From a virus, in the IMG/VR virus record IMGVR_UViG_3300048019_000010, positions 1-24,836 of that record: 24,836 bases of DNA. One strand, written 5' to 3'. How positions within the stretch are numbered: position 1 is the stretch's first letter; every line of letters begins with the position of its first letter. The notes beneath the pieces were generated by a model. It worked only from the letters and a program-made list of their open reading frames with translations, searched no databases and was not told where the DNA came from. The position numbers and the translations under genes are program-made. Shown here in pieces: positions 8,896 to 24,836 of the stretch.

Positions 8896-10554
8896 TTAAC
8901 CATTTAGAGCTTTAATCTCTTCTGTAAAAGCATCTATTATTGTTTTGTAAAGTGTACGCACTGCTTTTGATTTATCAGAAGCTGACATTAGCTGATACTC
9001 ATCAGATAAATATAAGTCCTGCATCTCATCAAGAAACTGGTTGTGATACTTAGCCCTGATTGGGAAAGTAACTTTAACCATCTTAGCTCTATCTTCAGCA
9101 GTAGTATCTGGCCTTCTATCCATAAGATTTATAAGAGCATCTGATGTTTCAATATCACCATTAGCGTCAATTTTAATAGCTAAGTTAGTTTTAAGTTTTT
9201 TATAATTTAACTGATAATTGTCATCAGAAGTGATAGAAGGTATTCCTTTTGCCTTCTGTTCTCTCTTTCGGTTTACATCCATAAAGAGTGTATTGAATAC
9301 ATCTGGATTGTTGTTTAGTTTACCACTCATTTGAAAACCAAAAAGCATTGTTAGAGCTTCTTCTGGTGTACGTGCTGTAGCTATTTGTCCTCGCATAGCA
9401 ATAATATCACTACCTTCTACTTCACGACTTTCTTTACTAAAGAAGTTTTGTTGTTCTTTATAAAACTTTCTAATGTCAGGAAAGTAAATAGCCGCTTCAC
9501 CAATTTGTTGAATACTAAGAATGTCTGATAAACCTACATCATTAGGGTCAGTAGCTGTTCCTAGTTTTTCAACAATAGTAGCAGTAATCATGTCTGTTAC
9601 TTTACGTTTGTCTCTTTGAAACTCAGTTTCTTCTAAAGACTCTTGAGCTTGCTTCTGTTTAAGAACAGCTACACGAGCTTTACCTAAAGCAATAATAGCT
9701 TGAGGACGTTGGGACAAGGGTTGATTACCTGCTTGGATAGAACCTGCTAAATCTAGGATACGATTACGTTGATTAAAGTCATAACCTTCAGCGTTCTGTG
9801 CGTAGTCTACAATAGTGTTTAGTGTAATGTCTGTAAGTTCTGCATTTGACAAGGCACTAGTTAGTTTAGTATCTGTTTCTACAAAACCTATTTCACTAGC
9901 AAAGTCTTCAGGTGCTACAGTACCATTTATTACTGCGTCAATACGTTCAGTTAAACCTGTGGTATATGTTGCAGTGTCTCTAGCTACAATGTTTTTATTT
10001 ACATTACTAATATGAGAAGCATCTAAGTTTTGTGTATAAGTACGAAAAGAACCTGCAAACCCTCTAGTTACACTAGGGCTTGAAAAAGCATCTTTGTTGT
10101 TGGCTACAAACTGTTGCCTTGCTTGTTGTTCAAACACCATAAAATCATTAGCGTTTACACTGTTACCTATACCCTGTGCTGTATACTGTTCGTTTACATA
10201 AGCACCGTACTGTCTTGACAAACGCTTACCAATGTTTTCATCAGCAAGTATTTGAGCAGGTTGTGATAAACTAGCATACTTACCAGCCGCTACATCTTTA
10301 GCAAATTGTTCTGGGTCATTAAAGAAAGCGTTGTCAACTGCTGATTTTTCTTTAGCTACTCGCTCTTCTCTGTTGCCTTGTGCTATCTTAGCAATCTGTG
10401 GACTAACTTCGGCAAGAGCTTTTAGCAACGCTGTGCCTGAGTTAGGTGACCTAGCTGGTGGTCTATATTGTACAAAGGTGTCTACTGGCCTAGCTACAGC
10501 AGTGGCAGGTGCGACCCTTTGCAGTGGTTGTACCTTACTGCGTTTAGATGCCAT
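8896..10554 (-). CDS. internal virion / core protein (T7 gp15-like position)
   Basis: 552 residues, ATG preceded by GGAGAAACCAA. It is mostly charged and helical, with an N-terminal basic and proline-rich leader (MASKRSKVQPLQRV, RPVDTFVQYRPPARSP) followed by ALLKALAEVSPQIAKIAQGN, a pattern typical of gp15-like core proteins of marine T7-like phages. It is shorter than T7 gp15 (747 residues). It lies between the gp14-like and gp16-like genes, exactly as in T7, and the three are expected to form the ejected core complex. No catalytic motif was seen. Identification rests on order, size and the N-terminal pattern. Confidence 0.78.
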   Translation of the reverse strand: MASKRSKVQPLQRVAPATAVARPVDTFVQYRPPARSPNSGTALLKALAEVSPQIAKIAQGNREERVAKEKSAVDNAFFNDPEQFAKDVAAGKYASLSQPAQILADENIGKRLSRQYGAYVNEQYTAQGIGNSVNANDFMVFEQQARQQFVANNKDAFSSPSVTRGFAGSFRTYTQNLDASHISNVNKNIVARDTATYTTGLTERIDAVINGTVAPEDFASEIGFVETDTKLTSALSNAELTDITLNTIVDYAQNAEGYDFNQRNRILDLAGSIQAGNQPLSQRPQAIIALGKARVAVLKQKQAQESLEETEFQRDKRKVTDMITATIVEKLGTATDPNDVGLSDILSIQQIGEAAIYFPDIRKFYKEQQNFFSKESREVEGSDIIAMRGQIATARTPEEALTMLFGFQMSGKLNNNPDVFNTLFMDVNRKREQKAKGIPSITSDDNYQLNYKKLKTNLAIKIDANGDIETSDALINLMDRRPDTTAEDRAKMVKVTFPIRAKYHNQFLDEMQDLYLSDEYQLMSASDKSKAVRTLYKTIIDAFTEEIKALNG

Positions 10555-15399: not shown

Positions 15400-16509
15400 T
15401 TACGCAGACAGAAGTGCGATTGCGTTAGCTGGACGCAGGACGTTATGCCCCATTGCGTACTTAGCTACCATCAATGTACCCTGACGGTTGATTTGATACT
15501 CAGACTCTACGCCCAAGTCCAACAACTTAACTGTAGCAACAGCGTCTTGGTTCATAACTAGACCACGAGCTTTTGCCGCAATGTCAACAAGGTTTACACC
15601 ATCTGTTGTAACGTTAGTGATGTCGTATGCAGTTGTACGACCTGAACCAGCAGTGTTAGCCAGTGGGCGTTGACCCTTTGACTGACCCTTAGAAGCACCT
15701 GCTGTTTCAATCAGGTCAGATACTACTAGGTGGTTAGACATATACACAGGCATACCAGCAATCATTGGTACTGTACCAGATGCGATTGAACCATTCCCAC
15801 CGTAATCACGGTTCATGAATGTCAGCTTAGAACCGTCAGATACGTCCATAAGAGCGTAGTACTGAGCAGGTGGCAGAACAACGAAAGCACCGTCTGATGG
15901 TACGTTCTTTGTGTCCATTTCTTTCTTAGCATCAAAGATAGCTTTTGCTAGCTTGGCTGGGTCTGTAGCGTCAGCCGCCGCCGCACCGATTGTCACGTTG
16001 TCAGTGAAGTCTTCTTCAGTGAATGAAGTGTAATCCTGAACAAGTGCGCCAGCACGGGTTGCGTTGCTTGCTAGAGAAGCCTTAAGTGCCTGACGTAGGA
16101 TGTTCTTATCTGCTTCTTTAGCAAGTGCGATACCTGCTTCTTTAGAGTAGATAGAACGTACATCATAGTGGTTGATTGCTTCGTCAATGTTTGCAATGAA
16201 CTGTGAGCTAATCAACAGGTCATCAATAGACACGACACGCTCACCTGCACGAATCTGACCACCAGTGATTTCATTTCCTGGGGTTAGGTATTCAGCAGAC
16301 GCACGGCCTGTCATTGGGAATGATGCTGACTTACCTTTTGAAATAGTACGTGTACGTACCAAAGGCATCATGATGTTCTTTTCTTCAAAAGCTGTAAGAA
16401 CTTCACCAGCATATAGTTTTAGGAACAGGTTACGAACATCACCTGTATTGTTATTTTGACCCTGATAGCTTACATCATAAGCTGGGTTTGAAGCGGCTTG
16501 CATTGCCAT
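15400..16509 (-). CDS. major capsid protein (T7 gp10-like)
   Basis: 369 residues; T7 gp10A has 345. Typical stretches are NTGDVRNLFLKLYAGEVLTA, FEEKNIMMPLVRTRTISKGK, SASFPMTGRASAEYLTPGNE and VSIDDLLISSQFIANIDEAI, as in capsid proteins of marine T7-like phages (HK97 fold). The start is ATG 16509 with AGAGGT about eight bases before it. It is preceded by a 324-bp non-coding gap carrying the 23S-like element and followed by an intrinsic terminator. Codon use is richer in G+C-ending codons than in neighbours, as expected for the most highly expressed gene. Confidence 0.95.
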   Translation of the reverse strand: MAMQAASNPAYDVSYQGQNNNTGDVRNLFLKLYAGEVLTAFEEKNIMMPLVRTRTISKGKSASFPMTGRASAEYLTPGNEITGGQIRAGERVVSIDDLLISSQFIANIDEAINHYDVRSIYSKEAGIALAKEADKNILRQALKASLASNATRAGALVQDYTSFTEEDFTDNVTIGAAAADATDPAKLAKAIFDAKKEMDTKNVPSDGAFVVLPPAQYYALMDVSDGSKLTFMNRDYGGNGSIASGTVPMIAGMPVYMSNHLVVSDLIETAGASKGQSKGQRPLANTAGSGRTTAYDITNVTTDGVNLVDIAAKARGLVMNQDAVATVKLLDLGVESEYQINRQGTLMVAKYAMGHNVLRPANAIALLSA

Positions 16510-16517
16510 GATTAATT

Positions 16518-16523
16518 ACCTCT
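16518..16523 (-). promoter_or_regulatory. ribosome binding site of the major capsid gene
   Basis: Minus strand AGAGGT, eight bases before the capsid ATG. It lies in an A/T-rich leader, outside the structured part of the gap, so it should be accessible. Confidence 0.65.
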
Positions 16524-16535
16524 TAGTAAAAAATG

Positions 16536-16564
16536 TTGAGTAAAACACACTCTGCATTTATTAC
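16536..16564 (+). promoter_or_regulatory. possible sigma70-type promoter for the 23S-like RNA
   Basis: Plus strand TTGAGT, 17 bases, TATTAC (each 4-5 of 6 to consensus), about 80 bases before the closing helix. It could drive a plus-strand transcript antisense to all genes. In A/T-rich sequence such a match is not rare, and no plus-strand terminator with a U-run follows the element. Confidence 0.3.
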
Positions 16565-16641
16565 ATCCTTTATCAAAGATTGTCCCTCGCAAGGGGTCAG
16601 TGGTAATAGTTTGTAGTCTTGCTTCGTGTTAGGGGAAGTCC

Positions 16642-16789
16642 CCTTCTAAATACATAATAAGGGCGAGGACAGCATTACCTGTTTCCTCGACCTGACACCT
16701 GCCAAGAGCGACCATATATAACGTCCTAAGGTAGCGAAACTTTTGCACGAATGGCTTAACTTCAGGGGTGTATTCATGTATTTAGAAGG
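16642..16789 (+). ncRNA. miniature 23S rRNA domain IV-like RNA element
   Basis: Compared from memory with bacterial 23S rRNA, the plus strand carries, in order: TGACACCTGCC (16693-16703; E. coli ~1820-1830, UGACGCCUGCC), a helix-69-like hairpin GAC-CATATATAAC-GTC (16710-16725), TCCTAAGGTAGCGAAA (16724-16739; E. coli ~1923-1938, identical), and TGCACGAATGGC then TTAAC (16744-16760; E. coli ~1961-1972). Helix 68 and the helix 71 hairpin are missing, the latter replaced by CTTT. A perfect 14-bp helix CCTTCTAAATACAT/ATGTATTTAGAAGG closes it, in the place of H61. Inside are a hairpin CGAGGA...TCCTCG (16664-16689), ACACC/GGTGT and GCCA/TGGC (H67-like). The H69 loop keeps U1915, U1917, A1918 and A1919 but has lost U1911 and A1913. 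It is antisense to all genes. The rRNA resemblance is direct; expression and role are inferred. Confidence 0.7.
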
Positions 16790-16833
16790 AGAGAGGGACG
16801 GAAAGGAGACATCCCTCACTCCCATGAGACAGA

Positions 16834-17628
16834 TTAAAACACCGAACTACGTGCCAATTTCTGGGCAACAGTATTTCGGTAGGCAGGGTCTTTGGCGTAT
16901 CTGGGGTCACGCATAGCCGCAGTCAGTTCAGCGGCACTATCAAATTTCCCACCCGATACAGGAGCATTATTCCCTTGAATAAGCTGTGGTTCATTTCCTA
17001 CTTCGGAACGATACCTTGCCTCTAGACCTTGTATTGCAAACCGCATAAGGTCTGCATCACCTGTCTCAATAGTTGTGTTGAAAGCATCAATATCACCTTC
17101 AGACATATTCTCAGTTGCCCAAGTTGTCATCTGTTCATAATTACTTTCACCACCTACAATGTCATACATTGACTCAGTGTTCACTGCTGTCAGTGCTTCT
17201 TGTCCTTGTATGTAATTGTCTACCAGTGAGCGTGGAAAACCAGCTTCTTCTAGAACTTCATAAGCATCCGCAGATAGCTCACCATTCTCACTGTATTCTT
17301 GTTGGAACACATCAAAGTCTAGACCTACTTTATCTAGTACTTCTTCTACTTCACCACTAGAGGGTACTTCTTCTACCTCTGATGGGTCTACATCTTCAAC
17401 TTCACCCTCATCATCGTCTTCATTATTAGAGCTTAGTTTCTGTTCTAGAGAGTTGTAGGCTTGTGCCATGTCTTCTGCTGACTTAAATTTCTCAGGAAGC
17501 CACTCAGGTCTTTCTTCAGATTGATTGTTCTTTTCAATCTGGTCAGCCTTCTCTAGCATTGCGGCAGTGTGTTCTGCTGGTTCTGCCATTTCTGTTTCTG
17601 GATTATGTGTGTTTAATCTGTCTGTCAT
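16834..17628 (-). CDS. capsid scaffold protein (T7 gp9-like)
   Basis: 264 residues and strongly acidic, as expected of a capsid assembly (scaffolding) protein; T7 gp9 has 307. It has ERPEWLPEKFKSAEDMAQAY near the N-terminus, a very common start in T7-like scaffolds, followed by a Glu/Asp tract (~70-95) and helical segments. The C-terminus (ELTAAMRDPRYAKDPAYRNT, then VAQKLARSS) is the conserved capsid-binding end of the family. ATG is preceded by GAGGAT. It lies between portal and capsid as in T7. Confidence 0.92.
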   Translation of the reverse strand: MTDRLNTHNPETEMAEPAEHTAAMLEKADQIEKNNQSEERPEWLPEKFKSAEDMAQAYNSLEQKLSSNNEDDDEGEVEDVDPSEVEEVPSSGEVEEVLDKVGLDFDVFQQEYSENGELSADAYEVLEEAGFPRSLVDNYIQGQEALTAVNTESMYDIVGGESNYEQMTTWATENMSEGDIDAFNTTIETGDADLMRFAIQGLEARYRSEVGNEPQLIQGNNAPVSGGKFDSAAELTAAMRDPRYAKDPAYRNTVAQKLARSSVF

Positions 17629-24126: not shown

Positions 24127-24836
24127 CTTCTTGTCCTTTCTTAACTAGTAGCTGTACCTCATCATGTACAAACGCTACGATTGTTGCATCTAAGTTAGCT
24201 TCCTTGATAGCTTCGGCAATACGAACATACCAAGTTTTACAAATGATTGCACCACAACTTTGAAGTAAAGTATTAAGTGCGGCATGGCTGTGACGTATCG
24301 GAATGACACGTCCGTCAAGTCCCTTAATCCAACCACGTTTTTCTGCCGCATCAGATACGGCATCCTTCAGGTACTTTAGTGCAGGTAGTTTAGTTAGAAA
24401 TTTTTTCTTGATTTTCCTACCTTCACCTGAACCCTTACCAATAATCTTACCAATCTTCTCGTCACCTGCACCATACAAAAATCCATAGATGAATGTCTTG
24501 GCATTGGAACGTGTAGGTAGACCAGCCGCTTCTTGGTTTGTGGTATGCACATCACCCTCAAGGACTACCTGAGAGTAGCTACCATCATCGTATGATGCCA
24601 TGTAGTGAGCAAGGCAACGTAGCTCTAGTCCAGAAGCGTCAGCCCCCAGAAGACTATACTCATGAGGAGCATGAAACAAAGACCGACACTCAGTCCCATA
24701 CTCTGCCCCAACGCTAGGGACTTGAGCAATGTTTGGGTTGTTGTGCGTACAGCGTGAAGTAACTGCACCCATATGATTGACACGTCCATGTATCTTACCA
24801 TCCTTCTGTAGTTTAAGCCATGCTTGTTTGCCAGTA
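24011..24836 (-). CDS. family A DNA polymerase, C-terminal part (T7 gp5-like)
   Basis: The open frame runs to the right edge, so the N-terminus is missing; about 274 residues are visible. It begins TGKQAWLKLQKDGKIHGRVN, then HMGAVTSRCTHNNPNIAQVP, matching the start of the T7 gp5 polymerase domain. Motif A is DASGLELRCLA (metal Asp first). Motif B (O helix) is RSNAKTFIYGFLYG, with the Tyr that gives T7-type enzymes little discrimination against dideoxynucleotides. Motif C is VAFVHDEVQL with the second metal Asp. The end (FRCRLDSDYKYGSNWADTH) is the gp5-type C-terminus. The last 116 nt are shared with the next gene in another frame. Confidence 0.93.
   Translation of the reverse strand, partial: TGKQAWLKLQKDGKIHGRVNHMGAVTSRCTHNNPNIAQVPSVGAEYGTECRSLFHAPHEYSLLGADASGLELRCLAHYMASYDDGSYSQVVLEGDVHTTNQEAAGLPTRSNAKTFIYGFLYGAGDEKIGKIIGKGSGEGRKIKKKFLTKLPALKYLKDAVSDAAEKRGWIKGLDGRVIPIRHSHAALNTLLQSCGAIICKTWYVRIAEAIKEANLDATIVAFVHDEVQLLVKKGQEDETGRIIQRCMRDTEQQFNFRCRLDSDYKYGSNWADTH

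Follow-up and report, generated by a model that had tools for sequence, protein, structure and literature searches.

Trans-encoded antisense sRNAs of bacteria and phages, such as the phage c4 RNA, are structured, present a complementary loop and often end in an intrinsic terminator (PMC12197685). The elements described here are similar in structure and loop, and many of those in phages outside the window lineage run into such a terminator. Known trans-encoded antisense sRNAs target mRNAs, whereas the predicted target of these elements is 23S rRNA, and a 2025 review of phage sRNAs does not mention rRNA (PMC12197685). Among synthetic molecules, a peptide nucleic acid directed against H69, the same target helix, inhibits the growth of E. 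coli by pairing (PMC7038079). This oligomer is man-made, while the element is natural, encoded by a phage, and spans H67 to H71.

In archaea and eukaryotes, box C/D and H/ACA guide RNAs are likewise structured and carry antisense loops against rRNA. However, they guide rRNA modification together with partner proteins. To our knowledge, these partner proteins are not known in bacteria. Domain IV of bacterial 23S rRNA (Rfam LSU) is matched by the complementary strand of the element, but the element itself lies on the opposite strand and has no covariance-model match. A natural phage RNA that would target rRNA by base pairing appears not to have been described: no phage RNA directed at rRNA was found in the open-access papers searched or in Rfam.

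A 23S-like stretch between the scaffold and capsid genes

The analysed stretch of DNA (24,836 nucleotides, IMG/VR record IMGVR_UViG_3300048019_000010; hereafter the window) belongs to a T7-like phage. PHROGs matches identify the major head protein, scaffold, head-tail adaptor, tail and internal virion proteins, and the main genes are on the minus strand. One 552-aa protein of the structural region (8896-10554, minus strand) has no PHROG match at E = 1e-8. The gap between the scaffold and capsid genes is 324 bases long and houses three 23S-like pieces on the plus strand, in rRNA order: TGACACCTGCC (16693-16703), GCGACCATATATAACGTCCTAAGGTAGCGAAACT (16708-16741), and TGCACGAATGGCTTAA (16744-16759). 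Positions 16723-16739 are an exact 17-mer of E. coli 23S 1922-1938 (E = 0.004 for the window alone against E. coli rRNA), and five bases past it an exact 12-mer, 16744-16755, corresponds to E. coli 23S 1963-1974.

An earlier, sequence-only reading of the window had placed these pieces on the strand opposite to the genes, with the order and sense of 23S, and the letters confirm this. It was also right in seeing that a phage carries a genuine, extended and non-coding match to 23S domain IV, linked to H67, H69, H71, and subunit joining. The 68-base stretch that it delimited (16693-16760) is real, but it forms part of a longer element (16642-16789) that folds on the minus strand. A partial local match to the Rfam LSU models had been expected and was not obtained: none of the LSU covariance models reached the gathering threshold in the window, and none gave a match up to E = 10 in 16510-16833. 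More generally, no Rfam family reached its gathering score in the window or in the antisense elements of 20 loci, and known ribozymes and other Rfam RNAs were dropped as candidates on this ground. Contamination was also considered and dropped.

Structure and folding strand

The features of the element and its two flanking genes are collected in Table 1. The covariance model gives the window element, a training sequence, a score of 175.9 bits.

Table 1. Coordinates of the element, its stems, its antisense blocks, and the flanking genes in the window.
Feature	Position	Strand	Remarks
Whole structured antisense RNA element (predicted), 148 nt	16642..16789	- (gene direction)	Alignment of 11 distinct relatives, pair counts, covariance model
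Closing stem P1, 5' arm CCTTCTAAATACAT	16776..16789	-	Partner 16642-16655
Closing stem P1, 3' arm ATGTATTTAGAAGG	16642..16655	-	Partner 16776-16789
Hairpin P2 GGTCGAGGAAACAGGTAATGCTGTCCTCGCC	16662..16692	-	Stem letters vary with compensation among relatives
Stem P3, 5' arm ACACC	16767..16771	-	Opens antisense loop; alignment and pair counts
Stem P3, 3' arm GGTGT	16695..16699	-	Closes antisense loop; alignment and pair counts
Antisense block 1	16744..16759	-	Predicted to pair with 23S 1963-1978 (after H71, 3' strand of H67)
Antisense block 2	16708..16741	-	Predicted to pair with 23S 1904-1940 (H69 and H69-H71 linker), two small gaps; includes the 16-mer
Antisense block 3	16693..16703	-	Predicted to pair with 23S 1825-1835 (5' strand of H67); overlaps P3
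Major capsid protein gene	15400..16509	-	Downstream of element; PHROG 267, E 8.7e-82
Scaffold (head assembly) protein gene	16834..17628	-	Upstream of element; PHROG 1052, E 2.1e-68

On the gene strand all 14 pairs of P1 are held, with 100% pairing in 11 of 11 distinct sequences. Three of these pairs show compensatory changes, and there are 3 G-U cells, which become A.C mismatches when read on the 23S-sense strand. For P1, P2, and P3 together, 96.7% of the gene-strand pairs are standard and 6 pairs are doubly changed. Neither the covariation score nor the number of doubly changed pairs was equalled by any of 500 shuffles. With so few sequences, all of them close relatives, this covariation supports a gene-strand structure but does not by itself prove it.

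The stems also form on the sense strand, where the folding z-score is -1.3 and many shuffles are as good, and a comparison of consensus folding on both strands did not tell the strands apart. Since the stems covary and obey the G-U rules only on the minus (gene) strand, this is the strand on which the element probably folds. As judged from the aligned sequences, the pair pattern shows a folded, RNA-like element in gene direction. An automatic stem search across families gave mixed stems and was left out of the evidence.

Complementarity to 23S rRNA

The 70-nt loop of the gene strand is antisense to E. coli 23S rRNA in three colinear antiparallel blocks within 1825-1978. H68 and H71 are skipped by the blocks and in the predicted pairing are left as looped-out hairpins. 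The region complementary to the loop is, of all contact surfaces on the bacterial large ribosomal subunit, the most conserved. Hybridisation energies were predicted as the gain beyond the own folding of both partners, with E. coli 23S as a stand-in for the 23S of the actual phage hosts. For the window element and 23S 1815-1985 the prediction is -39.7 kcal/mol, compared with -9.1 +/- 3.5 for shuffles and -3.3 for the opposite strand. Elements from other viruses gave -66.0 (L029), -49.2 (L005), -50.0 (L014), and -55.0 (L083) kcal/mol, a Staphylococcus phage -36.4 and an E. coli Jilinvirus -29.1 kcal/mol; across elements, shuffles are at about -9 and the opposite strand at -2 to -13 kcal/mol. In the Vibrio phage L074 the gain is not significant.

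The departures from E. coli 23S are also biased. Over all families, 45 transitions are wobble-compatible vs 11 incompatible, a count in which related sequences are recounted, and for distinct site changes the numbers are 22 vs 8 (p = 0.016). In single cases all changes are wobble-compatible (2/2 in the Vibrio phage L071 and 3/3 in the Staphylococcus phage L069), while the Jilinvirus counts are even (7 vs 7). Base pairing with 23S rRNA is well supported by sequence, and the loop looks built to pair with the host 23S rRNA, not to imitate it.

Distribution in related viruses

The exact 16-mer is found in 23 places in IMG/VR. About 20 are expected by chance by the author's estimate, which would suit a chance match or a captured fragment of rDNA, and because it is so near this expectation the count alone proves nothing. 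The two-block pattern TGACACCTGCCN{8,38}CTAAGGTAG has 30 loci in IMG/VR with about 2 expected by chance (also an estimate), and nearly all of them align as one family over 140-150 nt. The family comprises about 30 viral contigs with at least two genomic contexts: the scaffold-capsid gap in related phages, and directly after the terminase large-subunit gene in others. A covariance model built from capsid-context members retrieves non-training members with E = 1e-23 to 7e-9. The main neighbouring genes run against the 23S-sense strand at all phage loci of this family. A second, diverged family (L014, L016, L058-L062) is located immediately before a terminase gene. On contig L014, which also bears a family B element, a type II hammerhead ribozyme was detected at 1829-1890 of the minus strand (Rfam RF02276, E = 4e-5).

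A search of related phages, as the first reading had proposed, showed many of them to carry the element at this locus, which excludes an assembly artefact or a one-off capture. The origin by chance or from captured rDNA is refuted by this conservation, and its probability is practically nil: besides the 30 two-block loci, the conserved structure, the independent families, and the controls described below stand against it.

In 84,980 bacterial and archaeal genomes the two-block pattern gave no prophage copies; all its matches were coincidences in coding sequence or true 23S with rearrangements (L052, L054). The rearranged sequences, on contigs of MAGs (L052 467-523 and L054 2877-2918, reverse-strand coordinates), are 23S genes missing the sequence between TGACACCTGCC and H69. 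They are either assembly errors or truncated rRNA genes.

Antisense elements in unrelated phages

The H69-70 16-mer is located in non-coding DNA at 18 of its 23 viral loci and is antisense to the 5'-side gene in 17/17 loci having one. An intrinsic terminator directly follows the 16-mer element in, for example, L001, L002, L008, L009, and L022. The H71 16-mer has at least 80 loci in IMG/VR, most of them coding (GTYPT-like motifs) and set aside; among the matches listed, about 15 distinct non-coding families were recognised by inspection. For both 16-mers, again among the matches listed, terminators are on the antisense (gene) strand at 17 loci and on the rRNA-sense strand at 0. Terminator-ended elements are those of Jilinvirus, L001, L002, L008, L009, L022, L077, L139, L140, L150, and others. 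In the window lineage (L003) no terminator adjoins the element. At four loci (L001, L002, L008, L011) the H69-70 antisense loop lies between a protease-like gene and tRNA-Ile(TAT), directly before a strong terminator.

Among named phages, weak matches to 23S H69-H71 are mostly in non-coding DNA and come from about five phage groups. They were found in Jilinvirus phages of E. coli, Enterobacter, Klebsiella, and Salmonella, in two Guernseyvirinae, in Sextaecvirus-type Staphylococcus phages and in Vibrio phages. Marine phages, too, carry non-coding elements antisense to this 23S region. In the Jilinvirus-type E. coli phage HeidiAbel_Bas97 the element is at 24467-24659 of PQ850606.1. All of the named-phage elements inspected are antisense to the gene on their 5' side. 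Several families were retrieved through 23S-like sequence, so their complementarity was selected for by the search, while non-coding location, strand, terminators, and wobble bias were not. On contigs lacking annotation, gene calls followed a simple ORF rule.

A phage contig with a GroEL-like gene (L025, about 300-560) has a longer 23S target than the other families. Its blocks are permuted, running from 1938 to 1825 and then from about 2000 to 1967 (the latter part by eye). This order fits antisense pairing, which tolerates permutation as a miniature rRNA fold would not.

These features bear on the sequence-only reading's own interpretation, a reduced sense copy of 23S domain IV that would act as a decoy, drawing off an rRNA-binding protein, a toxin or an enzyme that modifies rRNA. 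The letter-for-letter similarity to 23S in sense order agrees with such a mimic, as do the stems that fold on the sense strand, though many shuffles do as well. A sense copy is nevertheless probably not what the element is: the stem wobbles are valid on the gene strand and would be A.C on the sense strand, the departures from 23S are mostly of the kind that preserves pairing, and all family members have their genes on the strand opposite to the sense strand. The decoy is disfavoured and very improbable, as similar elements are read with the genes into terminators, the L025 blocks are permuted, and there is no Rfam LSU match.

A DNA-level element (a homing-endonuclease, recombination or attachment site) would accord with the position of the 16-mer within the I-CeuI target region of rDNA and with the Jilinvirus elements near an integrase. 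It is scarcely credible given that the RNA stems covary, the changes follow a wobble pattern, and several families match H71 only, without the 16-mer; a homing-endonuclease site in particular is disfavoured on these grounds.

Controls with other rRNA regions

A 16-mer of the sarcin-ricin loop was used as a control and gave 10 loci. The single non-coding one (1/10) is true rRNA, and antisense non-coding elements were found at 0/10 loci. When phages were searched with the peptidyl-transferase window, with the 16S 3' end, and with 23S 1200-1277, weak matches outside rRNA records were few or absent. One of them is in the T4-type Aeromonas phage AP1 (L166 901-1163), where the 16S rRNA 3' end is present in sense orientation, followed by tRNA-Ile and tRNA-Ala. 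This locus is apparently a captured host rrn spacer.

Proposed action on the ribosome

With moderate confidence, the element is proposed to specify an antisense RNA of the phage that attaches to the intersubunit face of 23S rRNA, so that late maturation of the 50S or the joining of the subunits is blocked. The RNA would be produced as a portion of the late transcript or be released from it by cleavage, and in other phages it would end at its own terminator. Pre-50S particles or free 50S subunits would be its site of action: by invading H67, H69, and H70 of 23S there, it would keep the intersubunit face from folding. As an outcome, new 50S maturation or subunit joining would be stopped, or the rRNA would be marked for RNase III. 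The benefit to the phage would be to shut down, late in infection, the production of ribosomes or the translation by the host. Several points count against the proposal: in mature 50S subunits the target region is either buried or base-paired; phages need ribosomes too, so the inhibition must be timed; with no terminator beside the window element, a free RNA is only a candidate there; and the Vibrio phage L074 and the even Jilinvirus wobble counts do not conform.

H68, H69, and H71 are flexible in pre-50S particles (PMC11260487). Late in assembly the docking of H68 limits the rate, and the 30S subunit is unable to join while H68 is flexible (PMC11260487). Because of this flexibility and docking step, and because of the inhibition by the anti-H69 peptide nucleic acid (PMC7038079), pairing to pre-50S particles or free 50S subunits would be the most natural mechanism. 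If true, phages would have a novel way of taking over the host, the H67-H71 intersubunit face would be marked as one universal vulnerable site, and anti-ribosomal oligonucleotides would have a natural template. An isolated, catalogued phage of E. coli makes the proposal clearly testable.

The alternatives are that RNase III cleaves the hybrid, that the element acts in cis on the translation of late mRNA, or that it protects the target site. In the cis-acting case, pairing between late mRNA and 23S would tether ribosomes or 50S subunits and help or time the translation of the capsid gene or another neighbour. The place of the window-lineage element within a late structural operon, in the scaffold-capsid gap, is in keeping with this, and highly translated genes would profit. 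But the position of the element varies (before the capsid gene, after terminase, beside tRNAs, after integrase, between convergent genes), and in many phages a terminator follows, so that there is no gene downstream; a cis role is unlikely.

The 23S target region holds several modified and toxin-cut positions. A protective or counter-defence antisense RNA could hide H69-H71 from a cutting or modifying enzyme of the host or of a rival phage, with toxins acting at H70, RluD, RlmD, and RlmH as candidates. A covered subunit interface would halt translation as well, and protection is considered quite unlikely.

Returning to the antisense inhibitor, it is conceivable, if somewhat short of probable, that unrelated phage groups independently evolved antisense RNAs to 23S H67-H71 which trap late pre-50S particles or split the subunits, and that some of them (Jilinvirus), through added pairing with the 16S 3' end, could bind both subunits. 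The Jilinvirus RNAs are predicted to pair with 23S 1935-1977, and the one of L073 additionally with 16S 1529-1542. Since the dual 16S and 23S pattern occurs in only two records of IMG/VR, both Jilinvirus, such dual targeting is not general.

In the Jilinvirus loci L067 (850-1150), L066 (about 1201-1241), and L073 (about 1201-1234) a AGGAGGTGATCC-like stretch, the complement of the 16S rRNA 3' end, is found in addition to the H71 antisense block, shortly before the terminator. Weaker AGGAGGTGATCC-like motifs are present after the block in the Guernseyvirinae-like L070, L072, and L140, and before the H71 block in L150.
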